This document shows, one piece after another, positions 1,892 to 38,666 of a DNA stretch of 64,000 bases. The translations under genes were made by a program, and so were the position numbers. The notes under the pieces were generated by a model. That model made no database searches. It saw only the letters and a program-made list of their open reading frames with translations, and was not told where the DNA came from. Location of the stretch: positions 3,410,001 through 3,474,000 of the forward strand of contig NZ_FNKU01000001.1 in the NCBI RefSeq assembly GCF_900100365.1, written 5' to 3'. Origin of the DNA: Pseudomonas cannabina. GTDB lineage: Bacteria > Pseudomonadota > Gammaproteobacteria > Pseudomonadales > Pseudomonadaceae. Positions within the stretch are counted from its first letter, which is position 1; the number at the start of each line of letters is the position of its first letter.

Positions 1892-1908
1892 GATTGGAAG
1901 ACCTGCGA

Positions 1909-3210: not shown

Positions 3211-3426
3211 TGTTTTCCCCAAAGCAGAACTGTCCATAAGCAACAATCTGTAACACTGTCTTTAATCGAGCACAATCACTCAGGCCAATTCAGCCAAAAC
3301 CACCAGGCGGGTACCTGTACTCAAATCGCACAACAACCCGGATCACTCGCCTGTCTTTTCGTGGAGACGGACGGATGAACCGGGTTGCTGAACAACGGGT
3401 CGGGAAGCGGCTTGAAACAGAAAAGC

Positions 3427-8110: not shown

Positions 8111-8209
8111 GGAGGCGCTGATTTATTCGATTTTTCGTCCCTGCAACGCTCTGGAGGCCTTGATTTATCTGGGGGCAACAGCTGGGTTTTAGAATAAATC
8201 AGCGTCTCC
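8111..8209 (+). mobile_element. MITE-1 copy 1 (99 bp), upstream of a small gene
   Basis: A 99-base element with imperfect 18-base terminal inverted repeats: GGAGGCGCTGATTTATTC at the left and GGAGACGCTGATTTATTC read inward from the right. It is flanked by TTAG on both sides (8107-8110 and 8210-8213), a 4-bp target duplication. It contains no gene. The ends match the IS5-group element at 18527 and its copies over the first 10-11 bases. Length and P. syringae context resemble the reported MITEPsy1, which I cannot verify here. This copy ends only 12 bases before the start codon at 8222. Confidence 0.9.
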
Positions 8210-12807: not shown

Positions 12808-13058
12808 TGGGGGAAACTCCAGAACTTCGCAAAGCCGCTATTCTAGCGGCTGCGCAGGAAAACTGCAGTATCTCTGTTGCCTGAATGCACGCGCCGAAAT
12901 GCACGGCCCCGGCGCGAAAGATTGCACCGTGCCACTATCTGCTTTTAGCGCGTCCGGCGCTAAACAAGCCCTATATTAAGAGGGATTTTATGCGAGGTTC
13001 TTTTCAAGCGCACACGTCCCGCTTCTAGTTCAGACGTCTGTAGGACCTGTGTATATTT
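12808..13058. other. purU upstream region, now truncated by an IS
   Basis: About 250 bases with no gene longer than a 12-codon frame at 12990 (ribosome site AAGAGGG). It contains an inverted repeat near 12830-12850 (AGCCGCTATTCTAGCGGCT). The chromosome runs into the CTAA at 13059-13062, where the insertion block starts. Confidence 0.5.
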
Positions 13059-13062
13059 CTAA

Positions 13063-14240
13063 GAGGGTGTAGACAAAATCATGTAGTGAGTCGGCGCGCG
13101 AGTATTCGAGCCTCGGCCAACCAAACCCATGCCTCGCTTACCGCAAAAAGGCGATCATGATGCATGATCAGTCGCCGAGCTCTCTCATTCCAGGCATGAG
13201 TTCGCTCCACTACCCATCGCTTGGGCATGACCACAAATCCAGTCTGAACAGGCTCCACGGAAAATAGATCGCCTTGTTCAGAGTGCCATTGCCCTGTTCT
13301 TCTGTTATTCGGGCCACGGATCACTTGAACATCGATAGCGTGCAGTTGATGGGTGCGCTGTGCCCATTTTCCTGCGTACGCACTATCAACAAAAAGCGTG
13401 CTCAGTGACGGATATTTTTCCTTCGAGTACGCCACCGCATCATCCGCCGCGTCACGATCCTGCACGCTTGCAGCACTGATACTGACAGCCAGCAGCAGGC
13501 CCAATGTATCGACAATCAGACTTCGTTTACGCCCCTTCACTTTTTTGCCTGCGTCGTAGCCGCTGTCACCGCCTTGAGGAGAACTGCGGGTCGACTGTGA
13601 ATCCAGGATCGCTGCTGACGGGCTGTCAGCGCGTTCTTCCCGCTCACGCCATTGAGCTCGCAAGCGATCATGCATTTGCTCGAACTTGCCTTGAGCGCTC
13701 CACCGGCGGAACGTTTTGTAGACATTGTCCCAATGAGGAAAATCGCGGGGTAGCATTCGCCATGAGCACCCCGTGCGTACGACATAGCAACAGGCTTCCA
13801 GCAACGTGCGCCGAGAGTGAAGCGGTGGCACTCCTCGTCCGCCCTGGCTTTCAAACAGGTCGGCGACCAGTGCCCACTCGGTATCTGTCAAGCAACTCGG
13901 ATATAGCTGCTCCGGCAGTTGGCGGCGGTGGGTTTCATTGTAGCCATAGGCTTTATTAGGTTCAGGTGACTGAAAACTTCCCTTGGCCCGCTGCTTTACA
14001 CGCGTAATCCCTGCCATTTTCAACGCTTTTGCAAAGGTGTCGGGATGCGCAGTGATACCGGTTTCGGCGAAGAATACGAGCGCCAATTCGGCCTGGCTGG
14101 AATAGGGCTGTGCATGAGCGAGTTTCACCAGCACGGGATAGTGCTCGGCGGCAATCGAGCGAGGACGTCCGGTTTTAGGCATGGCTTGAGGGCTATTCAG
14201 ACAAGGGAGTGAAAGTTTAATTTATTTTGTCTACACCCTC
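13063..14240 (-). mobile_element. IS5-family element with 367-codon transposase, copy A (IS-367A, 1178 bp)
   Basis: The ends are 17-base perfect inverted repeats, GAGGGTGTAGACAAAAT. A second, nearly identical copy lies at 19740-20917 in the same orientation. The left flank is CTAA (13059-13062) and the right flank is TAG (14241-14243), so the flanks of this copy do not match each other. They are the mirror of those of the second copy (left TAG, right TAA). Confidence 0.9.
13079..14182 (-). CDS. IS5-family transposase with N-terminal HTH extension (copy A)
   Basis: A 367-residue transposase. Residues 1-75 look like a DNA-binding helix-turn-helix domain (TAHPDTFAKALKMAGITRVKQR), followed by an IS5-type DDE domain: first Asp in AAILDSQSTRSS, second in LFVDSAYAG, and Glu in RWVVERTHAWNERARR. 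The fused N-terminal domain is unusual compared with the 250-residue transposase at 17759. The sequence looks intact and is identical to the copy at 19756. Confidence 0.9.
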   Translation of the reverse strand: MPKTGRPRSIAAEHYPVLVKLAHAQPYSSQAELALVFFAETGITAHPDTFAKALKMAGITRVKQRAKGSFQSPEPNKAYGYNETHRRQLPEQLYPSCLTDTEWALVADLFESQGGRGVPPLHSRRTLLEACCYVVRTGCSWRMLPRDFPHWDNVYKTFRRWSAQGKFEQMHDRLRAQWREREERADSPSAAILDSQSTRSSPQGGDSGYDAGKKVKGRKRSLIVDTLGLLLAVSISAASVQDRDAADDAVAYSKEKYPSLSTLFVDSAYAGKWAQRTHQLHAIDVQVIRGPNNRRTGQWHSEQGDLFSVEPVQTGFVVMPKRWVVERTHAWNERARRLIMHHDRLFAVSEAWVWLAEARILARRLTT

Positions 14241-14243
14241 TAG

Positions 14244-14343
14244 GTATCCTCTGAAAAAGCCCATTTTTTTGGAGAGGAACCGGGCTGGAGCGCCTGTATT
14301 TACTGGCTTCGACTTTTGAAGAAAAGGCTTTTTCAGACCTTCC
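14244..14343 (+). mobile_element. MITE-2 copy 1 (100 bp)
   Basis: A 100-base gene-free element with ends GTATCCTCTGAAAAAGCC (left) and GGAAGGTCTGAAAAAGCC (right, inward). It is flanked by CTAG on both sides (14240-14243 and 14344-14347). The ends match the 1194-bp IS at 20921-22114: the right twelve bases GGAAGGTCTGAA are identical. The C of the left CTAG is also the last base of IS-367A. Confidence 0.85.
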
Positions 14344-14347
14344 CTAG

Positions 14348-14890
14348 GGCCATAGGGGCTTTGCCCCTCTGGACTCCCCAGATCTGCCTTGCGACGCGGC
14401 GGGAAGCTGACGGGAAGAGCGCCCATCAGCCTCCCTTGCATAGGCTGGGGTCGTTCCAACCGCATCAAGGGTGAAGGCTTCGCCCCGGCGCTCCGTTCAT
14501 CGGGCAGGCCCGATGAGCCGGTGCGGCGGCCCTTGACCCGGCTATCCGCGTTATTCACGCAGAAACGCAAACAATTAATGAATGACTTTGGTCTACAGCG
14601 CTCCATGGTGGATTTTTCTCGTTTCTCAGGTGCAGACCCCTTCGCCACGGTTTCTATATATCCACGCAGGAACACGAAGATATTGTGGAAATGGGCTAGG
14701 GGTGGTTCATGCTTGAGCGATAGCATTCATAGTGACTAGACCACTACAGCAAAAGCGATCTGAAATGTAAGGAACTCAGCTTCAGGCTTGCTGGACACCT
14801 TTTTAGCCCGGTGGAGGGTTACCCAAAAAGCTTATCCATTTCACATATGTCGAACCGACGAGTTCTTATAACAGGCCCCGTTCCACTCCT
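14348..14890. other. GC-rich plasmid-like non-coding stretch
   Basis: No supported gene. The first 220 bases are GC-rich with AGGGGCTTTGCCCCT (inverted repeat) and CTCTGGACTCCCC, a look I associate with mobilisation/oriT regions of plasmids. The rest is AT-richer. A minus-strand frame at 14217-14726 runs through the MITE and has the composition of an accidental frame. The oriT idea is an inference supported only by the mobC-like fragment at 22222. Confidence 0.35.
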
Positions 14891-14895
14891 TGACG

Positions 14896-16074
14896 CTATT
14901 CATATCTCTCGGCCCTAAAATGCAGAGACTGAAGACGTCTATCGAACTCAATCGTCGGCTGGGCGGCGATCAAACGGTCCAATATTTTGGGAATTCCATA
15001 GAGATTGTTAGTGCTACCCGGACCGTACAGACGCCATAGCAGTGTCAGGGTTTCACAAGGAAATCTCTCCGGACATTCTGATCGTTCTAGGGCAGGTATT
15101 CTTTCTCGCCCTTGAACCTGCGAGAGGTAGGGAAGTAGTTGAACAAGTGCTTCGGGAAAAGCCTCTCCCGACCTTATTACCAGATTAGTGAAAGGGCAAG
15201 TCAACGCGCTTTCACGCACAACGCGCTCTCGCGGCCATACTTTTTCAAGAAGAGGGCCGACGCTTGTACGCCATGCCTCCGCCGGACCACCTTCAATGTC
15301 CAAAATCCACTGAGCGAGGAGCTCCACAGCGCCTTCCCGCAATGCGGCTGGACAGTTGCGAAGTGTATGAGAGATATCCGTAAGGGTGATGCCCCAAGCC
15401 TCGACGTCACTGTCTTCACGAATAATTGCCAATGCAGGCGCTACAATCTTTGCTGCTGCGGCTGTAGTTTCGTGATGCGATGCATCAACCTCTAACAGCC
15501 CTCTCAAAATGTGAGCGGAGAATACATTCGAGACAGAGATATACGTACGCCGTTGGTTTACCAAGACTGCTCGCAATCCATGCCCAGCAGCGGTTGTCTC
15601 GCCAAGAGCAGCATCAAGGCAGGTACAAATCTCATCGTTCGCCACGCTCAGTACAAATGCGAGCGAGTTGACGAAAATAGCCCGCGCAAACGCGCCTTGC
15701 TTTCCTTCTGCGCGAGCAGCAAAAACCATTGCCCTGAGATGATTCTCGCTAACCGAACCGAACGATTGTCGGGCGGCCTCGATATCGGAGAGCAGGGCTT
15801 CAGCTAATCTGCCCGCAGGTGAGTTGATCGCTCGCTCATACAGTCGCTCCCCGTTTTCGAGAAGCTCTACATCTTGTTCAACGGCTATCGCAAATAACCT
15901 TTGCCAACATGTTGATACATCATTACTGGGTTGCCGAGGAACGAATGCATAAAGAATTGCCAAGCGCTCGATGACAAGGGCCAGAAATCCAGATTCGGCA
16001 TGCTCCATGCGTTGAAAAACTCGGATAATGAGTTCTGAGGTCGTCTCAACGCTGGTACTTGGGGGAAATGTCAA
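14896..16074 (-). pseudogene. 3' fragment of the MITE-split helical protein gene
   Basis: 392 codons starting from an internal residue. The frame is open back to the CTAG at 16080-16083. It holds the C-terminus, including WGITLTDISHTLRNCP and the end FDRRLQSLHFRAERYE. No ribosome site precedes the first in-frame start, so translation is doubtful. Confidence 0.65.
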
Positions 16075-16083
16075 AGCTCCTAG

Positions 16084-16182
16084 GGAGACGCTGATTTATT
16101 CTAAAACCCAGCTGTTGCCCCCAGATAAATCAAGGCCTCCAGAGCGTTGCAGGGACGAAAAATCGAATAAATCAGCGCCTCC
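16084..16182 (-). mobile_element. MITE-1 copy 2, inside the split helical protein gene
   Basis: 99 bases, target duplication CTAG (16080-16083 and 16183-16186). It shifts the frame of the host gene by one base. Confidence 0.92.
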
Positions 16183-16624
16183 CTAGCAAGTCGTTCCACA
16201 ACGGTGCATTCACTTCCTCAAGGGGAGCGTTTTGAAGTGTGTCGAACGCGCCTTCTGGATCATCACCACAGTATGCACTCCATCCCATTCTTTTCTCGAT
16301 GTCGAAGCTCTGCATAACCGCTTGCGCGATCTCGAGACGTTGGTCACTAGCGGCGGCCATAATTGGCTGTGCATCACCAATGATCGTTCGGACACCGCTT
16401 GAATAAGATCTAAAAAAGTCTCGCTCTTCCACGTCGCGATCTAGGTAATCGCGCCGTAATAAGATTGAGGCGAGCTCCTGGGCCCCTTGTACGGACAACG
16501 CTCCAGCAGCTTCAAACATCTTCAGGCGCAACCATACGTCGGAGTCACGAGCATGGCCTCTCCAATCAGTTTGGCCACTGTCGATGGTGTAGCGTGCGAA
16601 GAACTCTTCGCCCTCAGTCAGCAC
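16172..16624 (-). pseudogene. Middle fragment of the MITE-split helical protein gene
   Basis: About 150 codons (LTEGEEFFARYTIDSGQ...), open at its upstream side to the CTAA at 16645-16648. It ends NDLLGRR-stop, where LGRR-stop is encoded by the target CTAG plus the MITE end rather than by the gene. Confidence 0.65.
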
Positions 16625-16648
16625 CCTCCGCTCAAGTTCTAAGACTAA

Positions 16649-16747
16649 GGAGGCGCTGATTTATTCGATTTTTCGTCCCTGCAACGCTCTGGAGGCCTTG
16701 ATTTATCTGGGGGCAACAGCTGGGTTTTAGAATAAATCAGCGTCTCC
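16649..16747 (+). mobile_element. MITE-1 copy 3, inside the split helical protein gene
   Basis: 99 bases, target duplication CTAA (16645-16648 and 16748-16751). It is in the opposite orientation to copy 2. Confidence 0.92.
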
Positions 16748-17549
16748 CTAACATCTGACTGGCCTCAGCAAGGCGTTCTCGCATCACTAGGAGAAGTTCA
16801 CGTTTCACCTGCCAAAACTGGGTAAGTGACAGAGCGTTGAGGCCACGAATGGCCTCGTCTGCTGTGTAGATCGCTGCATTACGATGCCCATGAAGCCATA
16901 GTCTTACGGCTAACATTCCTGGCACACGCCGCCACTCGTCAACAAAATGCCGAGCAGCATCTGGATCCGTTGCGGCAATCTTTGGCAAAAGACTCGCGAT
17001 CAACTTAACCAGGAGCATCGGCCCGTCATGATGCTCATTCTGGGCGTGAGGTTCCACCGAGGGCACTGAGGCATCATTGATGTCATAGTCTGTTTCAAGG
17101 GCTCCGCAATCGACGGTTGACGCGACAAGATCCTGAAGCTTTGAGGTCGCTAGCTTCATTATTAGCGCTGGCTGTGAGTGCGTCAGCAAAGCATCCACCA
17201 ACTCGGCAGCGCCGGCAGAATCTCGCAGTTCAAAACTGGGGCGAATCAGATCTCTGATTTGTTCAGGCGCGTCGGCGCTTTCCTGGTTTGACAGAAATGC
17301 ACGCGCTCCATTGAGGGTTAGCATAGGGGTAATTAAATCAACTGCTGCGAGGAGGTCGGAATGAAGAATGACTGTGCCGCCGAGCCTCTTTTGCAGGCTG
17401 TAGATTTGGAGCTCTGCCTCCATACGATCAGTACACGCCGAATTGGACACTAGGAGGCGCCACGCACGCGTCCAAAGATCATGTAATCCATTTACGTGAT
17501 CTACACGATTTGCTAACGCGGTTGCGAGAGACTTGCCAATTTTCTTCAT
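16737..17549 (-). pseudogene. 5'-proximal fragment of the MITE-split helical protein gene
   Basis: 270 codons from ATG 17549. The frame remains open upstream (Leu-Lys-Trp before the Met) into the MITE at 17565, so the true N-terminus is missing. It ends QMLGRR-stop through the MITE end. Helical, no recognised motif. Confidence 0.65.
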
Positions 17550-17564
17550 CCATTTGAGACCTAG

Positions 17565-17663
17565 GGAGACGCTGATTTATTCTAAAACCCAGCTGTTGCC
17601 CCCAGATAAATCAAGGCCTCCAGAGCGTTGCAGGGACGAAAAATCGAATAAATCAGCGCCTCC
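17565..17663 (-). mobile_element. MITE-1 copy 4, at the 5' edge of the split gene
   Basis: 99 bases, target duplication CTAG (17561-17564 and 17664-17667). The right CTAG is directly followed by the next IS. Confidence 0.92.
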
Positions 17664-17667
17664 CTAG

Positions 17668-18522
17668 GGTCTGTTCCCGTTTGCACGTAACCCATTGATC
17701 CTTATGAGAACAGCCCCGTATTGTTGGAGTTCTCACACAACACCAATACGAGCCTGCAATGCCCCGATTAATGCTCAGTGATGAGCACTGGCCGAAGCTA
17801 CGAGAAATTTTGCTACACGAATCGATCTACAACAAGCGAGATTTGCGCACCACGGTTGAAGGCATGCTGTATCGCATGCGTGTGGGTTGCCCTTGGCGAG
17901 ACCTGCCGAAAGCGTTTGGAAACTGGAGCAAGGTCTACAAGCGGTTCAATGCCTGGTCTGCTTCAGGCAAGTGGGTCAAGGTGCTTGAGGTGCTGATGAC
18001 TGATCCTGACATGGAGTGGGTCTTCATTGATGGCAGCTATGCCAAGGCTCATCAGCACAGCGCAGGTGCTGCCAGCACGCAGGACCAGGCCATCGGAAAA
18101 AGCCGAGCCGGTAACACCAGCAAGATTCACCTGGCTGTAGACGCTTGTGGGCTGCCTATTGCATTTGACGTGACCGCAGGCCAGACCAATGATTGTTCGC
18201 AGGCGGCCTCGTTGATTGCCAAGGTGCCCGATGCAGAAGTGATCATTGCGGACAAGGGCTACGACACTGAAGCGATACGGGCTCAGGTCGAGCAGCAAGG
18301 CAGCAAAGTGGTGATTCCACGAAAGCGCAATTCTCTGAAAGGGAACGCAGATCTGGACAAAGGGTTATATCGCAATCGACATCTCGTAGAAAACGCCTTC
18401 GCCCGGTTGAAGCATTTCCGGGCGGTGGCTTCTCGATTTGACAAACTCAAGAGAAACTATGAAAGCGTCATAGCAATGGCCTGCGCTTTTCTGTGGCTAC
18501 CAATGTGAAACGGGAACAGACC
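17668..18522 (+). mobile_element. IS5-family element, IS427-like (855 bp)
   Basis: The ends are perfect 15-base inverted repeats GGTCTGTTCCCGTTT. CTAG is present on both sides (17664-17667, 18523-18526). The left CTAG is shared with the MITE and the right one with the next IS, so three elements abut with no other DNA between them. Confidence 0.9.
17759..18508 (+). CDS. IS5-family transposase (249 codons)
   Basis: A compact DDE transposase. The N-terminal DUF4096-like part includes MRVGCPWRDLPKAFGNWSKV. Catalytic residues are in VFIDGSYAKAH, VIIADKGYDTEAI and RHLVENAFARLKHFR. It appears intact in one frame, without the frameshift used by some IS427 members. Confidence 0.9.
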   Translation: MPRLMLSDEHWPKLREILLHESIYNKRDLRTTVEGMLYRMRVGCPWRDLPKAFGNWSKVYKRFNAWSASGKWVKVLEVLMTDPDMEWVFIDGSYAKAHQHSAGAASTQDQAIGKSRAGNTSKIHLAVDACGLPIAFDVTAGQTNDCSQAASLIAKVPDAEVIIADKGYDTEAIRAQVEQQGSKVVIPRKRNSLKGNADLDKGLYRNRHLVENAFARLKHFRAVASRFDKLKRNYESVIAMACAFLWLPM

Positions 18523-18526
18523 CTAG

Positions 18527-19735
18527 GGAGACGCTGAACAATTAACCCGTTCGCACCGTCCCCATTTCCAAGCCGGTTTTTTTCAACCTGCCGGCCTTAT
18601 TTTACGTTTCTCGAGCAGATTTCTGCCCTCATTTTGCTGAAAGGCGGGCCAGTCCCGCCTTTCAGACGGATTTATCCTGCCGTCTGTTGTAAATACCGCT
18701 TGGCCAGCATCAGATTGGCCAACCCAAACAAACTGAACAACTGCGCTGTATTCTTTTCCAGCCCACGGTAGCGAACCTTGCGATGATTGAAGCGCACCTT
18801 GATTACCTGGAAGGGGTGCTCGACCTTGGCACGCAGTTGCGCCTTGGCATATTCAATTTTGCGCTTGACCCGATACAGCACGCTGCCTTCGCCGTGCTGC
18901 TTGTAACTGCTTGGCCGTTCTGCAATCGACCAGATAACGTCCCGTTCAGCATGCTCCGGTCGCTTGGCCGCACCGGTGTATCCAGCGTCACCCGAAACAT
19001 AGGTTTCGTCACCGTGAAGCAACTGGCCAACCTGGGTGACATCCGCCACGTTAGCGGCCGTCCCTACTACGCTGTGCACCAGCCCCGACGTGGCGTCTAC
19101 ACCAATGTGGGCCTTCATCCCAAAGTGCCATTGATTGCCTTTCCTGGCCTGATGCATCTCAGGATCACGCTTGCCTTCTCGGTTCTTGACCGAGGGCGGC
19201 GCGGCGATCAGAGTAGCGTCGACGATAGTGCCTTCCTTGAGCAGCAGCCCCCGGCTGGCCAGATGCTGGTTAATCGTTTCAAACAGCAGCCGGGTTAGCT
19301 GATGGACTTCCAGCAAGCGGCGAAAACGCAGCAAGGTGGTGGCATCCGGTGCAGACTCGCGACCCAGGTCGATACCCATAAAACCGCGGATGGCCTGGCT
19401 GTCGTAGACGGCATCTTCGCAACCTTCATCGGAGAAACCGAAACACTGCTGCACGACGTACATGCGCAACATGCGCGACACCCCTATCGCAGGGCGTCCG
19501 CGCTTGCCTGCGGTGTTGCTATAAAACGGCGCCACTTGCGCCTCCAGCAGGGCCCAGGGCACCAACTGTTCAAGGTCAGCCAGGAAGCGATCTCGGCGAG
19601 TCTGCTTTTTCTTGCCGGTATATTCGAGTTCGGAGAAGGTCTTCTGCACGCGCGTAACGCTCACGGAGAGGGAGGCTGTTGAAGGAACTTAGTGTGCCAA
19701 GGGTGGGGACAGTTGGCTATTTTTGCAGCGCCTCC
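18527..19735 (-). mobile_element. IS5-group element of 1209 bp, copy 1 (IS-1209)
   Basis: The outer ends are GGAGACGCTGAACAATTA (left as shown) and GGAGGCGCTGCAAAAATAGC (inward from the right). CTAG flanks both sides (18523-18526, 19736-19739). The same element occurs at 22432, 25915 and 37454. Its ends match MITE-1 over 10-11 bases, with the same A/G difference between the two ends. Confidence 0.92.
18672..19664 (-). CDS. IS5-group transposase of IS-1209, copy 1
   Basis: 330 residues starting at GTG. DDE residues lie in GTIVDATLIAAP, VSGDAGYTGAAK and KVEHPFQVIKVRF. DUF772-like and DDE_Tnp_1 regions follow the usual IS5 order. All four copies in the window encode the same protein, so the expansion is recent and the transposase is likely active. 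Confidence 0.93.
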   Translation of the reverse strand: MSVTRVQKTFSELEYTGKKKQTRRDRFLADLEQLVPWALLEAQVAPFYSNTAGKRGRPAIGVSRMLRMYVVQQCFGFSDEGCEDAVYDSQAIRGFMGIDLGRESAPDATTLLRFRRLLEVHQLTRLLFETINQHLASRGLLLKEGTIVDATLIAAPPSVKNREGKRDPEMHQARKGNQWHFGMKAHIGVDATSGLVHSVVGTAANVADVTQVGQLLHGDETYVSGDAGYTGAAKRPEHAERDVIWSIAERPSSYKQHGEGSVLYRVKRKIEYAKAQLRAKVEHPFQVIKVRFNHRKVRYRGLEKNTAQLFSLFGLANLMLAKRYLQQTAG

Positions 19736-19739
19736 CTAG

Positions 19740-20917
19740 GAGGGTGTAGACAAAATCATGTAGTGAGTCGGCGCGCGAGTATTCGAGCCTCGGCCAACCA
19801 AACCCATGCCTCGCTTACCGCAAAAAGGCGATCATGATGCATGATCAGTCGCCGAGCTCTCTCATTCCAGGCATGAGTTCGCTCCACTACCCATCGCTTG
19901 GGCATGACCACAAATCCAGTCTGAACAGGCTCCACGGAAAATAGATCGCCTTGTTCAGAGTGCCATTGCCCTGTTCTTCTGTTATTCGGGCCACGGATCA
20001 CTTGAACATCGATAGCGTGCAGTTGATGGGTGCGCTGTGCCCATTTTCCTGCGTACGCACTATCAACAAAAAGCGTGCTCAGTGACGGATATTTTTCCTT
20101 CGAGTACGCCACCGCATCATCCGCCGCGTCACGATCCTGCACGCTTGCAGCACTGATACTGACAGCCAGCAGCAGGCCCAATGTATCGACAATCAGACTT
20201 CGTTTACGCCCCTTCACTTTTTTGCCTGCGTCGTAGCCGCTGTCACCGCCTTGAGGAGAACTGCGGGTCGACTGTGAATCCAGGATCGCTGCTGACGGGC
20301 TGTCAGCGCGTTCTTCCCGCTCACGCCATTGAGCTCGCAAGCGATCATGCATTTGCTCGAACTTGCCTTGAGCGCTCCACCGGCGGAACGTTTTGTAGAC
20401 ATTGTCCCAATGAGGAAAATCGCGGGGTAGCATTCGCCATGAGCACCCCGTGCGTACGACATAGCAACAGGCTTCCAGCAACGTGCGCCGAGAGTGAAGC
20501 GGTGGCACTCCTCGTCCGCCCTGGCTTTCAAACAGGTCGGCGACCAGTGCCCACTCGGTATCTGTCAAGCAACTCGGATATAGCTGCTCCGGCAGTTGGC
20601 GGCGGTGGGTTTCATTGTAGCCATAGGCTTTATTAGGTTCAGGTGACTGAAAACTTCCCTTGGCCCGCTGCTTTACACGCGTAATCCCTGCCATTTTCAA
20701 CGCTTTTGCAAAGGTGTCGGGATGCGCAGTGATACCGGTTTCGGCGAAGAATACGAGCGCCAATTCGGCCTGGCTGGAATAGGGCTGTGCATGAGCGAGT
20801 TTCACCAGCACGGGATAGTGCTCGGCGGCAATCGAGCGAGGACGTCCGGTTTTAGGCATGGCTTGAGGGCTATTCAGACAAGGGAGTGAAAGTTTAATTT
20901 ATTTTGTCTACATCCTC
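19740..20917 (-). mobile_element. IS5-family element with 367-codon transposase, copy B (IS-367B, 1178 bp)
   Basis: Nearly identical to 13063-14240 and in the same orientation. The right end has one transition (ACATCCTC for ACACCCTC). It is flanked by TAG on the left (19737-19739, part of CTAG) and TAA on the right (20918-20920). Confidence 0.9.
19756..20859 (-). CDS. IS5-family transposase with N-terminal HTH extension (copy B)
   Basis: 367 residues, identical in sequence to the protein at 13079-14182, with the same DDE motifs and HTH extension. Apparently intact. Confidence 0.9.
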   Translation of the reverse strand: MPKTGRPRSIAAEHYPVLVKLAHAQPYSSQAELALVFFAETGITAHPDTFAKALKMAGITRVKQRAKGSFQSPEPNKAYGYNETHRRQLPEQLYPSCLTDTEWALVADLFESQGGRGVPPLHSRRTLLEACCYVVRTGCSWRMLPRDFPHWDNVYKTFRRWSAQGKFEQMHDRLRAQWREREERADSPSAAILDSQSTRSSPQGGDSGYDAGKKVKGRKRSLIVDTLGLLLAVSISAASVQDRDAADDAVAYSKEKYPSLSTLFVDSAYAGKWAQRTHQLHAIDVQVIRGPNNRRTGQWHSEQGDLFSVEPVQTGFVVMPKRWVVERTHAWNERARRLIMHHDRLFAVSEAWVWLAEARILARRLTT

Positions 20918-20920
20918 TAA

Positions 20921-22114
20921 GGAAACTCTGAAAAAGACTTCCTAATTTGGCAAAATCTCCGGACACCAGTCGCCGAGCTTTTCGATGATGAAACAGATGA
21001 CCTTCGCCGACGCCGAGTATGCCGGCAAGCGCAAGCAGACCCGTAAGGAATTGTTCCTGATCGAGATGGATCAGGTGGTGCCCTGGAAAGGTTTGATTGC
21101 CCTGATTGAGCCCTATTATCCAAAAGGAGAAGGTGGCCGGCCCGCCTACCCACTGATGGCGATGCTGCGTGTTCATCTGATGCAGAACTGGTTCGGCTAC
21201 AGCGATCCGGCGATGGAAGAAGCGCTGTATGAGACGACCATCCTGCGTCAGTTTTCAGGCCTGAGCCTGGAGCGCATTCCAGACGAAACCACGATTCTCA
21301 ACTTCCGTCATCTGCTGGAAAAGCACGAGTTGGCGACCGGGATTCTCGGCGTAATTAATGGTTATCTGGGCGACCGTGGCTTGTCGTTGCGTCAAGGCAC
21401 CATCGTCGATGCCACGCTGATCCACGCGCCCAGTTCGACCAAGAACAAGGATGGCAAACGCGATCCTGAGATGCATCAAACCAAGAAAGGTAACCAGTAC
21501 TATTTCGGCGCCAAGGCTCACATCGGCGCCGACGACGAGTCAGGCCTGGTGCACAGCGTGGTAGTAACAGCGGCCAATGTGGCAGACGTCACGCAGGTTG
21601 CCAAACTGCTACACGGCGAGGAAAACGTAGTCTGCGCCGACGCAGGTTACACCGGGGTTGAGAAGCGCGAAGAACATGCTGGGCGCAAGGTCATTTGGCA
21701 GATTGCCGCCCGCCGCAGCACTTACAAAAAGCACGGAAAACGCAGTGTTTTGTACAAGGCGATCCGCAAAATCGAGAAGGCCAAGGCCCAGGTTCGCGCC
21801 AAGGTCGAGCATCCGTTTCGGGTCATCAAACGCCAGTTTGGCTATGAAAAAGTGCGCTTTCGGGGCTTGGCCAAGAACACCGCGCAGATGGTGACGTTGT
21901 TCGCCCTGTCAAACCTGTGGATGGCCCGCCGACATTTGTTGGCGAGCGCAGGAGAGGTGCGCGTGTAATGCAGGAAATGGTTACCGCAAAAGGCTTTGCA
22001 GCGGCCGAAAGAGCTGAAAAGCGAAGATAATTGAGCAAATTTCGACATGCATCGTTTTTTGAAAAGTGCTGAGGACTCGGTAGCCGGAAAACATCCGGCT
22101 ACTTCAGACCTTCC
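20921..22114 (+). mobile_element. IS5-group element of 1194 bp (IS-1194)
   Basis: The ends are GGAAACTCTGAAAAAGAC (left) and GGAAGGTCTGAAGTAGCC (right, inward). The flanks are CTAA (20917-20920) and TTAA (22115-22118), both YTAR but not identical, which suggests a rearrangement after insertion. The ends match MITE-2. Confidence 0.88.
20985..21968 (+). CDS. IS5-group transposase of IS-1194
   Basis: 327 residues, about half identical by eye to the IS-1209 transposase. DDE residues are in GTIVDATLIHAP, VCADAGYTGVEK and KVEHPFRVIKRQF. It is full length and apparently intact, and is the likely source of transposase for MITE-2. Confidence 0.92.
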   Translation: MMKQMTFADAEYAGKRKQTRKELFLIEMDQVVPWKGLIALIEPYYPKGEGGRPAYPLMAMLRVHLMQNWFGYSDPAMEEALYETTILRQFSGLSLERIPDETTILNFRHLLEKHELATGILGVINGYLGDRGLSLRQGTIVDATLIHAPSSTKNKDGKRDPEMHQTKKGNQYYFGAKAHIGADDESGLVHSVVVTAANVADVTQVAKLLHGEENVVCADAGYTGVEKREEHAGRKVIWQIAARRSTYKKHGKRSVLYKAIRKIEKAKAQVRAKVEHPFRVIKRQFGYEKVRFRGLAKNTAQMVTLFALSNLWMARRHLLASAGEVRV

Positions 22115-22118
22115 TTAA

Positions 22119-22217
22119 GGAGGCGCTGATTTATTCGATTTTTCGTCCCTGCAACGCTCTGGAGGCCTTGATTTATCTGGGGGCAACAGCTGGGTTTTAG
22201 AATAAATCAGCGTCTCC
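22119..22217 (+). mobile_element. MITE-1 copy 5
   Basis: 99 bases with target duplication TTAA (22115-22118, 22218-22221). It abuts IS-1194, and the left TTAA is also the right flank of that IS. Confidence 0.92.
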
Positions 22218-22221
22218 TTAA

Positions 22222-22430
22222 ACGCAATCAGTAATTCAGAAGTTTGCTGTGAATGCGCACCGCGGCTGCTATTAAATAACTCTTTTTGCAGTCCGCCTAA
22301 ACTACGGAGCTGAGCTGCAAACGTCTTTATGTCTGCACAGAGTATCCGGTCTGATTGGTTCCGTATCCGGCGACTCAATCCTGCACAACGAATAAACATC
22401 GACAACGATATGCCTGCACCCTCAGCTTTA
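22222..22430 (-). pseudogene. Fragment of a MobC/TraJ-like relaxosome protein gene
   Basis: About 70 codons with no start or stop of their own, cut by IS-1209 on the right and by a MITE on the left. The reading AEGAGISLSMFIRCAGLSRR then a region with LRSLGGLQKELFNSSRG looks like the ribbon-helix-helix relaxosome accessory proteins (MobC/TraJ type) of mobilisable plasmids, which help the relaxase nick oriT. The assignment rests on this short stretch. Confidence 0.45.
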
Positions 22431-22431
22431 G

Positions 22432-23640
22432 GGAGGCGCTGCAAAAATAGCCAACTGTCCCCACCCTTGGCACACTAAGTTCCTTCAACAGCCTCCCTCT
22501 CCGTGAGCGTTACGCGCGTGCAGAAGACCTTCTCCGAACTCGAATATACCGGCAAGAAAAAGCAGACTCGCCGAGATCGCTTCCTGGCTGACCTTGAACA
22601 GTTGGTGCCCTGGGCCCTGCTGGAGGCGCAAGTGGCGCCGTTTTATAGCAACACCGCAGGCAAGCGCGGACGCCCTGCGATAGGGGTGTCGCGCATGTTG
22701 CGCATGTACGTCGTGCAGCAGTGTTTCGGTTTCTCCGATGAAGGTTGCGAAGATGCCGTCTACGACAGCCAGGCCATCCGCGGTTTTATGGGTATCGACC
22801 TGGGTCGCGAGTCTGCACCGGATGCCACCACCTTGCTGCGTTTTCGCCGCTTGCTGGAAGTCCATCAGCTAACCCGGCTGCTGTTTGAAACGATTAACCA
22901 GCATCTGGCCAGCCGGGGGCTGCTGCTCAAGGAAGGCACTATCGTCGACGCTACTCTGATCGCCGCGCCGCCCTCGGTCAAGAACCGAGAAGGCAAGCGT
23001 GATCCTGAGATGCATCAGGCCAGGAAAGGCAATCAATGGCACTTTGGGATGAAGGCCCACATTGGTGTAGACGCCACGTCGGGGCTGGTGCACAGCGTAG
23101 TAGGGACGGCCGCTAACGTGGCGGATGTCACCCAGGTTGGCCAGTTGCTTCACGGTGACGAAACCTATGTTTCGGGTGACGCTGGATACACCGGTGCGGC
23201 CAAGCGACCGGAGCATGCTGAACGGGACGTTATCTGGTCGATTGCAGAACGGCCAAGCAGTTACAAGCAGCACGGCGAAGGCAGCGTGCTGTATCGGGTC
23301 AAGCGCAAAATTGAATATGCCAAGGCGCAACTGCGTGCCAAGGTCGAGCACCCCTTCCAGGTAATCAAGGTGCGCTTCAATCATCGCAAGGTTCGCTACC
23401 GTGGGCTGGAAAAGAATACAGCGCAGTTGTTCAGTTTGTTTGGGTTGGCCAATCTGATGCTGGCCAAGCGGTATTTACAACAGACGGCAGGATAAATCCG
23501 TCTGAAAGGCGGGACTGGCCCGCCTTTCAGCAAAATGAGGGCAGAAATCTGCTCGAGAAACGTAAAATAAGGCCGGCAGGTTGAAAAAAACCGGCTTGGA
23601 AATGGGGACGGTGCGAACGGGTTAATTGTTCAGCGCCTCC
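22432..23640 (+). mobile_element. IS-1209 copy 2
   Basis: 1209 bases. The flanks are TTAG (22428-22431) and CTAG (23641-23644), not identical. Its right end reads GGAGGCGCTGAAC inward, where other copies have GGAGACGCTGAAC. Confidence 0.92.
22503..23495 (+). CDS. IS5-group transposase of IS-1209, copy 2
   Basis: 330 residues starting at GTG, the same protein as at 18672-19664, with the DDE motifs intact. Confidence 0.93.
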   Translation: MSVTRVQKTFSELEYTGKKKQTRRDRFLADLEQLVPWALLEAQVAPFYSNTAGKRGRPAIGVSRMLRMYVVQQCFGFSDEGCEDAVYDSQAIRGFMGIDLGRESAPDATTLLRFRRLLEVHQLTRLLFETINQHLASRGLLLKEGTIVDATLIAAPPSVKNREGKRDPEMHQARKGNQWHFGMKAHIGVDATSGLVHSVVGTAANVADVTQVGQLLHGDETYVSGDAGYTGAAKRPEHAERDVIWSIAERPSSYKQHGEGSVLYRVKRKIEYAKAQLRAKVEHPFQVIKVRFNHRKVRYRGLEKNTAQLFSLFGLANLMLAKRYLQQTAG

Positions 23641-23644
23641 CTAG

Positions 23645-23743
23645 GGAGACGCTGATTTATTCTAAAACCCAGCTGTTGCCCCCAGATAAATCAAGGCCTC
23701 CAGAGCGTTGCAGGGACGAAAAATCGAATAAATCAGCGCCTCC
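23645..23743 (-). mobile_element. MITE-1 copy 6
   Basis: 99 bases, target duplication CTAG (23641-23644, 23744-23747). It abuts IS-1209 copy 2 with a shared CTAG. Confidence 0.92.
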
Positions 23744-23748
23744 CTAGG

Positions 23749-24423
23749 TGGTGGGTTAAAGCGATCACCGATGTTCTGCCGAAAGATCTACAGACCCTGC
23801 TGCAGCAAAGTGGGTGGGAAGCAGGGTTGGAAGTTAGCGCTTACGAGAACGCCAAATCGCGGAATCAGGTACGTTGCTCAAAAGATTTTGAGGCCATCCC
23901 TTTCTATTCGGTGCAAGAGGCTGCATTCCAACTTGCATCAGGAAAATCATGGCCACTATGGATAAGCGAAGATGCTGCGCGGCAGACCTCTGCAATCGGT
24001 GAATGTCCGCCAGAACTCCATAAGGGATCAAAGGACGTCGTACTTGACCTTATTAAGGTGTTGGACAGTCGCAATTTCGGGCTCGGCGTGTCCAGCGAAC
24101 ACGAAAGTCGGTGGCGGCCATACGTCGTTCTCTTCTCAAGAAACAATCCGGCTAGCGAGGTGCTTGCAGGCGTAGTCCACTCGTACTTCTCTTGGCGACA
24201 GCGTCGAGATGAGCGCTCGCCCATGCTTTACGTGTCCGACGGAGCTACGTCCTATGCACCTCGGCTATTGGGCTTCGGTGACCATACCGCAGTCGTAAAC
24301 GGCCTTGATGTAATTCCTGCGGGCGATGGCCCCGGGGAGTTTTTCGGCTACAAAAATGCCTTGAAAGTGGTGGGTACTCCGAACGGACTTCAGTACATGG
24401 GCAAGCGAGTCCCATTGGTGTGA
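23749..24423 (+). pseudogene. 5'-truncated gene of unknown function
   Basis: The frame is open from the CTAG left by the MITE and runs about 224 codons to a stop at 24423; the only early starts are internal (TTG at 23827). The product is soluble-looking with no signal or membrane segment. Visible stretches include PLWISEDAARQTS, ESRWRPYVVLFSRNN and FFGYKNALKVVGTPNG. I do not recognise the family. It is convergent with the repA remnant and has a lower GC content than core genes, so it is probably plasmid or island cargo. Confidence 0.5.
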
Positions 24424-24445
24424 ATGTGTCCCGGTAATCGGCGCG

Positions 24446-24474
24446 AGGTGTTCATCTCATTGAGGTGAACACCT
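24446..24474. terminator. Stem-loop between the truncated gene and repA
   Basis: AGGTGTTCA and TGAACACCT form a perfect nine-base stem with an 11-base loop between two converging genes, with a short TTT on the plus side. Confidence 0.55.
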
Positions 24475-24497
24475 TTAGAACGCTAGCAGACGAATCT

Positions 24498-24845
24498 TCA
24501 GGCGCATTGATCTAAACTTCGTATTCGTTTTGACTGCTTTTTATCAGGCGGTATATGAAGCTGGGCGGGAGTCAGTTTGATATACTCTCGGTAGATTTCC
24601 ACGTGGGGACGGGCCTCAGGGTAAAACAATAGGGCTTCGTCGAGGCGTCTAATAAAAGTTTTCTTGAAGTCACGAGCACCTTGTTTATCCGTTGCGTAGT
24701 TGGCACCAAATTGCCTACGCAAACTTGAGATTGGTATCTTCATTTCTGTTCTTTTGGATTTCCGTAACGTGTACATCCTATAGACAAGCCAGGCGTAGAT
24801 ATCCATCGCTAGCGGCGAATGCCTTAGGCTTTGCAATGCTTCCAT
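24498..24845 (-). pseudogene. RepA 3' fragment
   Basis: 115 codons from an internal ATG. The frame is open further upstream to the MITE at 24930 (KWESSLTLNTDFFEA). It encodes the conserved C-terminal block of the RepA_C domain. Confidence 0.75.
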
Positions 24846-24929
24846 TTTGAGCGGAACTGGGGCGCTAATGATTGCTTCAAAGAAGTCTGTATTGAGTGTA
24901 AGACTGCTCTCCCATTTCTCGCAGTCTAG

Positions 24930-25028
24930 GGAGGCGCTGATTTATTCGATTTTTCGTCCCTGCAACGCTCTGGAGGCCTTGATTTATCTGGGGGCAACAG
25001 CTGGGTTTTAGAATAAATCAGCGTCTCC
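24930..25028 (+). mobile_element. MITE-1 copy 7, inside repA
   Basis: 99 bases, target duplication CTAG (24926-24929, 25029-25032). Confidence 0.92.
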
Positions 25029-25551
25029 CTAGTGTTCTAACATCCCAAAAGAAAAACGCTTTCTTTGCTACCATCATATTTTCAATTGTGATCGCGCCGC
25101 TGTTGCTTCCAGTTACTGAAATCATCGATCTTACAAGCCTTAATGTCTGCTCTTTAAGTTTGCCGATGTATCGACCATCGTTATGCAGTCCCAGTTTTTT
25201 AAGGAACGCCGACTGTGATTTACCCAGCCCTATCACGGGGCTTTGAGTTTTGACTGCTTCAGTGCAGATCCAAGCCAGTAGCAATCTCGGTAGGCTTCCA
25301 TACGGTACTCCGATATGTGGAGGTGCCGAAATCGATAGCTTCAACCATTCCGTACCGCGTTCAAAATAATGAATACCAGGGTCGCTATGAGGAAAGGTAG
25401 CCTGTACTAGAAAACGGGTCGTGAACGCCGTGGGACCCGGTTTCGTTCTCTGAGCAGCTTCCATCCGAGTCGCGTCATTCATCATGCGGAGCAAGCGGGG
25501 GTTAAGCTCCCAAGATATTTCATCCAGAGCATTATTTTTAGCGAGGCTCAT
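25018..25551 (-). pseudogene. RepA 5' fragment
   Basis: 177 codons from the native ATG, ending RTLGRR-stop where the last four residues and the stop come from the target site and the MITE end. It carries the N-terminal and central RepA motifs, and could yield a truncated initiator if expressed. Confidence 0.75.
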
Positions 25552-25558
25552 TTTTACC

Positions 25559-25707
25559 TCAGCGAACAGCTTGCGTTAGTCGTTTCTCACATTTATGGCT
25601 TAACCACGCTGACACCTCTGCCTCAATCCAGCCGACGGCTCTGATGCCTAGTGGTACTGGTCTTGGAAAGCTTCCGTTGTTTATCAGAAAGTAGATCCCT
25701 GACTTAG
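25559..25707 (-). pseudogene. AlpA-family regulator, 5'-truncated by a MITE
   Basis: 49 codons without a start: KSGIYFLINNGSFPRPVPL then GIRAVGWIEAEVSAWLSHK. This is the characteristic MerR-like helix-turn-helix and wing of AlpA/Prophage CP4-57 regulators, small DNA-binding proteins of integrative elements and plasmids that act on integrase or rep genes. The stop lies just before the repA start, so the two formed one transcript. The N-terminal dozen or so residues are missing at the TTAG of the MITE. Confidence 0.75.
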
Positions 25708-25806
25708 GGAGACGCTGATTTATTCTAAAACCCAGCTGTTGCCCCCAGATAAATCAAGGCCTCCAGAGCGTTGCAGGGACGAAAAATCGAATAAATCAGC
25801 GCCTCC
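25708..25806 (-). mobile_element. MITE-1 copy 8, inside the alpA-like gene
   Basis: 99 bases, target duplication TTAG (25704-25707, 25807-25810). Confidence 0.92.
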
Positions 25807-25810
25807 TTAG

Positions 25811-25910
25811 GTATCCTCTGAAAAAGCCCATTTTTTTGGAGAGGAACCGGGCTGGAGCGCCTGTATTTACTGGCTTCGACTTTTGAAGAAAAGGCTTTTT
25901 CAGACCTTCC
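25811..25910 (+). mobile_element. MITE-2 copy 2
   Basis: 100 bases, identical by eye to the copy at 14244. Target duplication TTAG (25807-25810, 25911-25914). It abuts MITE-1 copy 8 on the left and IS-1209 copy 3 on the right, sharing a TTAG with each. Confidence 0.88.
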
Positions 25911-25914
25911 TTAG

Positions 25915-27123
25915 GGAGGCGCTGCAAAAATAGCCAACTGTCCCCACCCTTGGCACACTAAGTTCCTTCAACAGCCTCCCTCTCCGTGAGCGTTACGCGC
26001 GTGCAGAAGACCTTCTCCGAACTCGAATATACCGGCAAGAAAAAGCAGACTCGCCGAGATCGCTTCCTGGCTGACCTTGAACAGTTGGTGCCCTGGGCCC
26101 TGCTGGAGGCGCAAGTGGCGCCGTTTTATAGCAACACCGCAGGCAAGCGCGGACGCCCTGCGATAGGGGTGTCGCGCATGTTGCGCATGTACGTCGTGCA
26201 GCAGTGTTTCGGTTTCTCCGATGAAGGTTGCGAAGATGCCGTCTACGACAGCCAGGCCATCCGCGGTTTTATGGGTATCGACCTGGGTCGCGAGTCTGCA
26301 CCGGATGCCACCACCTTGCTGCGTTTTCGCCGCTTGCTGGAAGTCCATCAGCTAACCCGGCTGCTGTTTGAAACGATTAACCAGCATCTGGCCAGCCGGG
26401 GGCTGCTGCTCAAGGAAGGCACTATCGTCGACGCTACTCTGATCGCCGCGCCGCCCTCGGTCAAGAACCGAGAAGGCAAGCGTGATCCTGAGATGCATCA
26501 GGCCAGGAAAGGCAATCAATGGCACTTTGGGATGAAGGCCCACATTGGTGTAGACGCCACGTCGGGGCTGGTGCACAGCGTAGTAGGGACGGCCGCTAAC
26601 GTGGCGGATGTCACCCAGGTTGGCCAGTTGCTTCACGGTGACGAAACCTATGTTTCGGGTGACGCTGGATACACCGGTGCGGCCAAGCGACCGGAGCATG
26701 CTGAACGGGACGTTATCTGGTCGATTGCAGAACGGCCAAGCAGTTACAAGCAGCACGGCGAAGGCAGCGTGCTGTATCGGGTCAAGCGCAAAATTGAATA
26801 TGCCAAGGCGCAACTGCGTGCCAAGGTCGAGCACCCCTTCCAGGTAATCAAGGTGCGCTTCAATCATCGCAAGGTTCGCTACCGTGGGCTGGAAAAGAAT
26901 ACAGCGCAGTTGTTCAGTTTGTTTGGGTTGGCCAATCTGATGCTGGCCAAGCGGTATTTACAACAGACGGCAGGATAAATCCGTCTGAAAGGCGGGACTG
27001 GCCCGCCTTTCAGCAAAATGAGGGCAGAAATCTGCTCGAGAAACGTAAAATAAGGCCGGCAGGTTGAAAAAAACCGGCTTGGAAATGGGGACGGTGCGAA
27101 CGGGTTAATTGTTCAGCGTCTCC
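25915..27123 (+). mobile_element. IS-1209 copy 3
   Basis: 1209 bases. The flanks TTAG (25911-25914) and CTAA (27124-27127) do not match. Confidence 0.92.
25986..26978 (+). CDS. IS5-group transposase of IS-1209, copy 3
   Basis: 330 residues from GTG, the same protein as in the other copies, intact. Confidence 0.93.
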   Translation: MSVTRVQKTFSELEYTGKKKQTRRDRFLADLEQLVPWALLEAQVAPFYSNTAGKRGRPAIGVSRMLRMYVVQQCFGFSDEGCEDAVYDSQAIRGFMGIDLGRESAPDATTLLRFRRLLEVHQLTRLLFETINQHLASRGLLLKEGTIVDATLIAAPPSVKNREGKRDPEMHQARKGNQWHFGMKAHIGVDATSGLVHSVVGTAANVADVTQVGQLLHGDETYVSGDAGYTGAAKRPEHAERDVIWSIAERPSSYKQHGEGSVLYRVKRKIEYAKAQLRAKVEHPFQVIKVRFNHRKVRYRGLEKNTAQLFSLFGLANLMLAKRYLQQTAG

Positions 27124-27127
27124 CTAA

Positions 27128-27227
27128 GTATCCTCTGAAAAAGCCCATTTTTTTGGAGAGGAACCGGGCTGGAGCGCCTGTATTTACTGGCTTCGACTTT
27201 TGAAGAAAAGGCTTTTTCAGACCTTCC
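27128..27227 (+). mobile_element. MITE-2 copy 3, at the mvaT-side edge of the block
   Basis: 100 bases with target duplication CTAA (27124-27127, 27228-27231). The right CTAA is the first chromosomal sequence before the mvaT promoter. Confidence 0.88.
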
Positions 27228-27259
27228 CTAAATAATTCAAATAAAACTTTTATTTAATG

Positions 27260-27288
27260 TTTACTTGCCCATTTACAGTGACTATTAT
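27260..27288 (+). promoter_or_regulatory. Probable mvaT promoter
   Basis: TTTACT (27260-27265) and TATTAT (27283-27288) are separated by exactly 17 bases. The upstream DNA is very AT-rich (about 27230-27259), as expected for an UP element or MvaT/MvaU binding. The insertion block ends 28 bases before the -35 box. Confidence 0.6.
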
Positions 27289-27332
27289 TGCCGCACTGTA
27301 TCCCTGCAACCCTCACAACTTAAGGTCCCCTC

Positions 27333-27713
27333 ATGTCCCTGATCAACGAATACCGCGCCACAGAAGAAGCCATCAAAGAACTGCAAGCCCGTTTGAAGAA
27401 TCTGTCGCAAGACGACAAACTGCAAACCGAGCTGGAATTCGAAGGCAAACTGCGCACGCTGATGGGCGAATATCAGAAATCGCTGCGTGACATCATTGCT
27501 TTGCTGGACCCGGACGCCAAGGTTAACAAGGCTCCACGTGGCGGCGCAGTTAAACCTGCCGGCACCAAACGCGCTCGCAAGGTCAAGCAATACAAGAACC
27601 CGCACAACGGTGAAGTCATCGAAACCAAAGGTGGCAACCACAAGACGCTGAAAGAGTGGAAAGCCAAGTGGGGCAGCGATGACGTAGAAAGCTGGGCCAC
27701 TCTGCTGGGCTAA
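27333..27713 (+). CDS. mvaT: H-NS-like xenogeneic silencer MvaT
   Basis: 126 residues. The N-terminal coiled-coil oligomerisation part is MSLINEYRATEEAIKELQAR and following; the basic linker is APRGGAVKPAGTKRARKVK; the C-terminal AT-hook-like DNA-binding part includes KQYKNPHNGEVIETKGGNHK and LKEWKAKWG. MvaT coats AT-rich foreign DNA in Pseudomonas and silences it. The gene is intact, but its upstream neighbour is now a 14-kb block of mobile DNA instead of purU. Confidence 0.97.
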   Translation: MSLINEYRATEEAIKELQARLKNLSQDDKLQTELEFEGKLRTLMGEYQKSLRDIIALLDPDAKVNKAPRGGAVKPAGTKRARKVKQYKNPHNGEVIETKGGNHKTLKEWKAKWGSDDVESWATLLG

Positions 27714-37101: not shown

Positions 37102-37464
37102 ATGTCTAGTAACTACCCAATGCGACCATTCGAAAACGCTCGCGCAAAAATCCTTTCGATCTATGCGGCTATTAGCAGACCGGAAGCAGATCAGCTTTCA
37201 CAGGCAACGCAGAACTACGTAGAGACCCTGGAGGAATATGAACTTATCTCTAAGGCACAGCGGATGGTTTTGGACAACGAACTAGCGAACGCTCGGTGCA
37301 ATTGGGAGATGCCCTCCCAAAATGTGCCGCTGATGAAGCGAATCACGAGTTGCCTCAAGCGGAAATTGGCTAGGTGTAAAGCATGGCTTGCTGCCAAAGA
37401 GCAAAAATGGAAAACATACTGGCTAAAGTGGGTTGCGATAACGACTATCCTAGGGAGACGCTGA
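37102..37464 (+). pseudogene. 5' fragment of the split membrane protein gene
   Basis: About 120 codons from ATG 37102, ending ITTILGRR-stop through the end of IS-1209. Soluble, basic, with a coiled-coil-like middle (KRKLARCKAWLAAKEQKWK). Confidence 0.65.
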
Positions 37465-38662: not shown

Positions 38663-38666
38663 CTAG

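Follow-up and report, generated by a model that had tools for sequence, protein, structure and literature searches.

Proposed tip-to-tip accumulation of IS5-type elements and uptake of gene fragments at a single CTAA target upstream of mvaT in Pseudomonas cannabina

The closest described counterparts of the locus analyzed here come from several mobile-element systems. In Pseudomonas syringae pv. phaseolicola 1448A, the miniature inverted-repeat transposable element (MITE) MITEPsy1 occurs in 6 copies, with CTAG or YTAA as the target and a 4-nt duplication, and the insertion sequence (IS) ISPsy19 is often found beside ISPsy2 (9 cases) and MITEPsy1 (3 cases) (PMC3189936). IS30 displays a dual target choice, inserting at hot spots or beside its own inverted repeats (IRs) (PMC9333248); recombination between ISs removes matching target duplications (PMC11708052); high-copy prokaryotic MITEs include Correia, with more than 120 copies, and ERIC, with up to 711 (PMC10969869); and capture of transposons by H-NS has been reported (PMC11335895). 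The locus in question is a block of 14,165 bp lying between purU and mvaT in Pseudomonas cannabina; it is contained in a 64-kb window (the whole stretch of DNA that was analyzed, to which coordinates without a prefix refer) of the 5.82-Mb contig C1 (genome G000, 6.39 Mb in 9 contigs). It carries the same elements as 1448A, as judged by length and ends, in an adjacency of the kind noted there (PMC3189936); unlike in 1448A, another MITE, termed MITE-1, with ends like those of the IS termed IS330, is present in about 220 copies, and adjacency was measured against null models. With a confidence somewhat better than even, the block can be explained by a target that regenerates itself at the tips of inserted elements, together with an IS array that served as a landing pad for other DNA.

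An earlier reading made from the DNA letters only (the sequence-only reading) had placed a block of mobile and broken plasmid DNA at one CTAA between purU and mvaT, taken to be neighbors in other pseudomonads. CTAA is indeed read directly at both outer edges, at 13059-13062 on the left and at 27228-27231 on the right, the latter copy being kept in relatives; the left neighbor is purU (TIGR00655, E 3e-108), the right one is mvaT (27333..27713, plus strand; NF041860, 236.8 bits against a cut-off of 180), and 28 bases do separate the right CTAA from the -35-like TTTACT at 27260. The two flanks joined at one CTAA (372 nt) were compared with 397 other Pseudomonas genomes, one per species; the query aligned from its first to its last base in 13 of them, the best being G347 (97%), where the joint reads TATATTT-CTAA-ATAATTC with zero bases lost or gained, the same as in P. 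syringae pv. cilantro. Three of the 13 loci were reversed and uninformative in the joint alignment; in the ten that were counted the flanks are contiguous, with CTAA at the joint in nine and CTCA in one (G018). A scan of named species, again with one genome per species and based on the exact right-hand motif, returned 19 named records, and in 18 of them the conserved left half is joined to CTAAATAATTC (three records have less than 170 bp of left flank); the exception is P. avellanae BPIC 631, which has an IS end at the joint. The closest empty-site record is P. syringae pv. cilantro 0788_9, with 99.7% identity on the right flank and 97.9% on the left. Thus the purU and mvaT leader regions are contiguous, with one CTAA, in relatives that lack the block, as the sequence-only reading had expected; since this empty site is seen, the block is an insertion into one CTAA, on ancestral purU-mvaT neighbors. 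Barring a clean loss of the block in the relatives, it was acquired after the lineage had parted from that of P. syringae pv. cilantro 0788_9. The block is, however, not one plain inserted piece: inside it, CTAA recurs where elements meet at 20917 and at 27124, two positions that the sequence-only reading had not listed, and these delimit three units, each edged by CTAA, at 13063-20916, 20921-27123 and 27128-27227, the last being a copy of MITEPsy1.

All 24 junctions in the block are YTAR. Seventeen full-length IS5-type elements are present, namely two copies of ISPsy19, one ISPsy2-like IS, three IS330, one IS249, three MITEPsy1 and seven MITE-1; from their lengths they make up 9,023 of the 14,165 bp, the remainder being six segments (P1 to P6) and target copies. 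The names ISPsy19, ISPsy2 and MITEPsy1 are based on the lengths and ends given in PMC3189936 and on record annotations, and IS330, IS249 and MITE-1 are labels of this analysis. Each of the four IS types has inverted ends and codes an IS5-type transposase (NF033580 or NF033581, above the curated cut-off). IS330 is 1,209 bp long and shares the end GGAGRCGCTG with MITE-1, which behaves as a MITE in having 99 bp, 18-bp inverted repeats and a matching YTAR in 68 of 76 copies; MITEPsy1 copies have 100 nt, the published 18-nt ends (PMC3189936) and a 4-nt duplication. With a shift of one base allowed, the same 4-mer is found on both sides of 90 of the 101 elements outside the block and of 12 of the 17 inside; for IS copies alone, the matching YTAR is present in 20 of 23 outside and in two of seven inside. 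The five mismatched elements of the block are the two ISPsy19 copies, A and B, which are reciprocal to each other, the ISPsy2-like IS, IS330 copy b and IS330 copy c.

Neighboring elements often meet tip to tip, sharing one YTAR. This was counted in the window and in 20 stretches of 20 kb from the same genome, picked for holding MITE-1, which together contain 118 full-length elements and 46 neighboring pairs with one shared YTAR; 69 of the 118 elements belong to arrays, 23 in number. Under a uniform null, where each element picks a random YTAR in its stretch, the mean is 9.6 pairs, with a maximum of 21 in 2,000 runs and of 20 in 1,000 runs. A preference model was trained on 45 lone insertions (42 of them MITE-1) whose flanks match; it indicated that C directly before YTAR (or G directly after it) is favored 2.36-fold per side, CTAG 1.66-fold and TTAA 0.48-fold. 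When the null was weighted accordingly, every tip being scored as CTCC with one weight for all tips, the expectation was 34.3 pairs (s.d. 4.5), and 46 was reached in 10 of 1,000 runs; the expectation rises because element tips carry the preferred bases. Element tips meeting an ordinary sequence preference account for most of the pile-up, and a remainder beyond this preference may be real. Insertion beside the tip of an element already in place is shared with IS30 (PMC9333248); however, the targets of IS30 are its own ends, and IR-IR junctions result, whereas here the partners are different IS5-type elements separated by one complete 4-bp YTAR, and most of the adjacency is explained by sequence preference.

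Outside the block, 13 of 19 arrays use one 4-mer throughout, the pattern needed if a single site was hit repeatedly; the array at L189:4195-8951 has seven elements of six kinds, with CTAG at every junction. TCC lies just outside YTAR at 70 of the 441 MITE-1 ends genome-wide. Tip-to-tip joints are found as well in two of three plasmid stretches of other strains, in the order ISPsy2-CTAG-ISPsy19-CTAG-IS330-like on p107 and IS330-like-CTAG-ISPsy19 on PP1. Long arrays of five and six elements are located at L195:9504-12202 and L198:6378-10290, respectively; one junction of the L198 array appears shifted by one base and was counted as CTAG, and the L195 array, which has mixed 4-mers, may be another recombination site.

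In the block, the first unit opens with ISPsy19 copy A (13063..14239, minus strand), which codes a 367-aa IS5 transposase and has mismatched flanks, CTAA and CTAG; it closes with copy B (19740..20916, minus), one base different from A and flanked by CTAG and CTAA. Copy A is followed by MITEPsy1 copy a (14244..14343, plus; CTAG on both sides, ends as in PMC3189936) and by segment P1 (14348..16079, minus), whose first 235 bp are 95% like G356 C9 and which holds the 3′ end of the DSR1 gene from about 14889. DSR1 continues with its middle in P2 (16187..16644, minus) and with P3 (16752..17560, minus), cut at the CTAG at 17561; within the gene are MITE-1 copy a (16084..16182, plus; CTAG on both sides) and copy b (16649..16747, minus; CTAA on both sides). 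MITE-1 copy c (17565..17663, plus), IS249, an 855-bp IS5_3-type IS (17668..18522, plus), and IS330 copy a (18527..19735, minus) complete the unit, each between two CTAG. The second unit starts with the ISPsy2-like IS (IS327; 20921..22114, plus; flanks CTAA and TTAA), which has 1,194 bp, the length of ISPsy2 in PMC3189936; MITE-1 copy d (22119..22217, minus; TTAA on both sides), segment P4 (22222..22427), IS330 copy b (22432..23640, plus; TTAG and CTAG) and MITE-1 copy e (23645..23743, plus; CTAG on both sides) follow. Next are P5 (23748..24925), MITE-1 copy f (24930..25028, minus; CTAG on both sides) and P6 (25033..25703, minus), and then MITE-1 copy g (25708..25806, plus) and MITEPsy1 copy b (25811..25910, plus), both with TTAG, that is CTAA on the other strand, on either side. 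IS330 copy c (25915..27123, plus; TTAG and CTAA), with its transposase oriented towards mvaT, ends the unit, and MITEPsy1 copy c (27128..27227, plus; CTAA on both sides) is the third one. Further copies of MITE-1 and IS330 in the window lie at 8111-8209, 37454-38765 and 42211-42309, the middle one being an IS330-MITE-1 pair that shares one CTAG.

P1, P2 and P3 correspond to model positions 941-1259, 744-867 and 484-714 of the anti-phage gene DSR1, PADLOC agreeing for two of the three pieces; the block thus has only positions 484-1259, in three pieces, and no full-length DSR1 frame with a SIR2 domain. In G383, 1,160 codons of the DSR1 frame (L180) are read without a stop, up to the limit of the examined DNA. 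Its bases 304-1498 align with C1:57925-59118 (82.6%; L185:7925-9118) and its bases 1495-3809 with the block, from 17564 down to 15044 (75-79%); the two parts are 3.37 Mb apart and preserve the order of G383. The 5′ part, about one third of the gene and with the SIR2 domain, is found within an island that also contains the Gabija genes GajA and GajB and a phage-type integrase. Both cut ends show the same CTAG and then MITE-1, with IS330 directly after it in the island and after IS249 in the block. The two parts probably derive from one DSR1 gene cut at a single CTAG; formally, the same picture could come from a pair of independent DSR1 copies that were both cut at this CTAG. An inversion of 3.37 Mb between the island IS330 at C1:59.2 kb and IS330 copy a, which would rejoin DSR1, was considered and rejected, as it would part the ancestral neighbors purU and mvaT. 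The island IS330 at DSR1 has mismatched flanks, CTAG and TTAG; IS330 copy b, with TTAG and CTAG, was rejected as its reciprocal, its neighbors being repA DNA.

P5 and P6 are the 3′ and 5′ parts of a plasmid repA with RepA_C, P5 being below the family cut-off, split by MITE-1 copy f; the block has these two pieces only and no intact RepA. The RepA proteins of the 12 best among 661 plasmid records share 48-50% amino acid identity with P6. A search of plasmid records with P1, P4, P5 and P6 revealed no donor plasmid: P4 had zero matches, the others short ones only. The description as mobile and broken plasmid DNA therefore stands in part: the block is mobile and broken, and the repA pieces agree with it, but the left cargo belongs to a defence gene and is not simply plasmid DNA, because the other part of DSR1 is chromosomal.

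In the proposed mechanism, IS5-type elements would choose YTAR with C before and G after, and duplicate it; most ends being GG.../...CC, an inserted tip would present C-YTAR-G again, a better target than most YTAR of the genome, and for this reason several families would accrete tip to tip at one site. We infer the order of the following events, the circle, the crossovers and the uptake of DNA by IS-IS recombination. A first array, CTAA-ISPsy19-CTAA-ISPsy2-CTAA-IS330-CTAA-MITEPsy1-CTAA, would later have become the landing pad. A circle carrying an all-CTAG array (MITE-1, IS249, IS330, ISPsy19, MITEPsy1) and the 3′ part of DSR1 would have entered by an ISPsy19 x ISPsy19 crossover, leaving CTAA/A/CTAG...CTAG/B/CTAA; the repA segment would have replaced the CTAA between the ISPsy2-like IS and IS330, with crossovers in both, resulting in CTAA/TTAA and TTAG/CTAA; and IS330 copy b (TTAG/CTAG) may be a deletion scar. 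Entry of a circle is favored because, when IS330a-ISPsy19-MITEPsy1a is closed at one ISPsy19, the resulting array (MITE-1c, IS249, IS330a, ISPsy19, MITEPsy1a) has CTAG at every joint, and because native CTAG is present at the same places at the P1 edge in G356 and at the P3 edge in the DSR1 of G383. As in PMC11708052, mismatched flanks are read here as scars left by recombination between ISs; differently from that case, the reciprocal mismatched pair may here mark the uptake of a segment. The single target, the junctions, the target preference, the tip-to-tip excess and the burst of MITE-1 described below are direct observations.

Several points weigh against this interpretation. The weighted null is still below 46 pairs, so preference is perhaps not the whole cause; the preference itself is chiefly that of one element (42 of 45 lone sites are MITE-1) and was applied with equal weight to all tips, and the 20 stretches, selected for MITE-1, are a non-random sample. 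Mixed 4-mers occur in six of the 19 arrays beyond the block, tip-to-tip pairs are absent from the third plasmid stretch (L210), and the chromosomal CTAA beside mvaT itself has T before and A after, rather than C and G. The island scar (CTAG/TTAG) does not agree with one simple excision, and the 1.2-kb repeats could be misassembled. Finally, the P1 edge in another relative, G213, is without CTAG, which slightly lowered our confidence.

Exact MITE-1 ends with YTAR number 441 in this genome, with 0 in a reversed control, and were found in 0 of the 397 other Pseudomonas genomes; exact ends of MITE-1 and IS330 occur also on the smaller contigs, and exact right ends of IS330 number 92 in the genome. 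Since the exact MITE-1 ends are confined to one of 398 Pseudomonas genomes, the burst is recent; MITE-1 resembles Correia and ERIC (PMC10969869) as a short element with more than 100 copies, and differs from them in this restriction. Diverged copies are kept in G347, and some old copies predate the burst, because one of them shares its flanks with a degenerate copy in L191. IS330-like DNA (E 1e-200 or better) was detected in 10 of the 397 genomes with 83-98% identity, the 98% match (G213) being partial and the best full-length one 93% (G235); plasmids from P. amygdali and from the P. syringae group carry IS330 at 100%, whereas MITE-1 is present on 38 of 72,556 plasmid records, four of them at 99% or more. 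It is a fair guess that a plasmid-borne IS330 arrived and moved a resident MITE with like ends.

On the mvaT side, the core promoter TTTACT-17-TATTAT (27260..27288, plus) is intact. In 21 relatives, the 40 bp to the right of the joint are conserved at 97-100% (means of ten columns) and the 20 bp to its left at 87-93%, with 50-83% in the blocks further left. The block splits a conserved upstream stretch from mvaT, sparing the core promoter, a feature not listed in the sequence-only reading; a stretch of 23 conserved bp to the left of the target (13036..13058) now lies 14 kb from the gene. That reading had also proposed read-out from IS or MITE ends into mvaT, which was not supported here: a promoter scan of 26900-27360 detected no promoter besides the native one, and a strong hairpin 3′ of the transposase gene of IS330 copy c (26985..27013, plus; -22.9 kcal/mol, z -4.6) argues against strong read-out, though it has no T-run.

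A different origin of the block, which we regard as unlikely, involves composite transposons, ISPsy19 A and B having moved the DSR1 segment as a unit, and the stretch from the left end of the ISPsy2-like IS to the right end of IS330c or MITEPsy1 having moved as another. The transposases may accept each other's ends, as 10 of 12 bases are identical between GGAAACTCTGAA and GGAGACGCTGAA, and each unit has like ends and CTAA on both sides, as transposition of a unit would also yield; ISPsy19 A and B do flank cargo with CTAA at both outer sides, and integration of a circle gives the same outcome. However, the inner CTAG/CTAG match of the ISPsy19 unit would be due to chance (CTAG accounts for 236 of the 1261 YTAR in the background and for 21 of the 58 sites used), and the second unit would have to combine a left and a right end from two different ISs. 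No second copy of a unit was found, in an own-genome search that was weak (2 candidates per genome, the repA unit being left out), and no plasmid record covers a unit. An assembly error, in which repeats led to the pieces of DSR1 and repA being misjoined next to mvaT, is very improbable; 1.2-kb repeats are abundant in the block, and the DSR1 parts are found at separate locations, each bordered by MITE-1 and with IS330 close by, but an assembly of 9 contigs, one of 5.82 Mb, suggests long reads, and at either outer edge unique DNA passes into an element with the same CTAA.

A third possibility, that MvaT-family proteins bound at their own AT-rich promoters attract transposons, as reported for H-NS, seems distinctly doubtful. 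It would account for P. avellanae BPIC 631, in which 15 bp of an ISPsy2-type right end are found at the same CTAA (L141:1-15), where the contig ends, and the left side (end of L143) departs from the other species after a CTAG 34 bp upstream, corresponding to 13025 of the window; this insertion upstream of mvaT appears to be a separate event. Similarly, a second gene of the MvaT/MvaU family (L002:1470-1835, near 4,895,300 of C1) is preceded, at a distance of about 170 bp from its start, by a clean MITE-1 between two CTAA (L002:2005-2103). Against attraction, 3 kb at a third mvaT-like region (L003) are free of elements, arrays are found at numerous other sites, and 441 MITE-1 and 92 IS330 ends in 6.4 Mb make a hit near a paralog unsurprising; with such numbers of insertions, chance may suffice for those at silencer genes. 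The H-NS work (PMC11335895) and this locus have in common the association of silencer biology with transposon hotspots, and by this analogy the silencer-transposon link is suggestive; here, in contrast, the silencer gene itself is the neighbor, and the case is known from sequence. A runaway loop, in which the insertions upstream of mvaT and of the second MvaT/MvaU gene would have weakened xenogeneic silencing, freed the transposase of a newly arrived IS330 and triggered the MITE-1 burst, is a long shot, less credible than any of the above; if true, it would be a case of mobile DNA disarming its own silencer.

A limited search, covering titles, the first parts of abstracts and the available part of PMC9333248, found no account of tip-to-tip accretion for IS5 elements, and none of the papers found on mvaT, Pseudomonas syringae and insertion sequences deals with this site, as judged by title. 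What is new is the measurement of a target that regenerates itself, the interpretation of mismatched flanks as traces of a landing pad, and the MITE-1 burst. The finding offers a simple reason for the pile-up of ISs in bacterial genomes: their ends would restore the preferred target, and each hit would improve the site for later insertions. A route is also suggested by which unrelated DNA may enter such piles and genes may come to be divided across megabases, and in Pseudomonas cannabina the pile-up adjoins the master silencer of foreign DNA during a very recent MITE burst.

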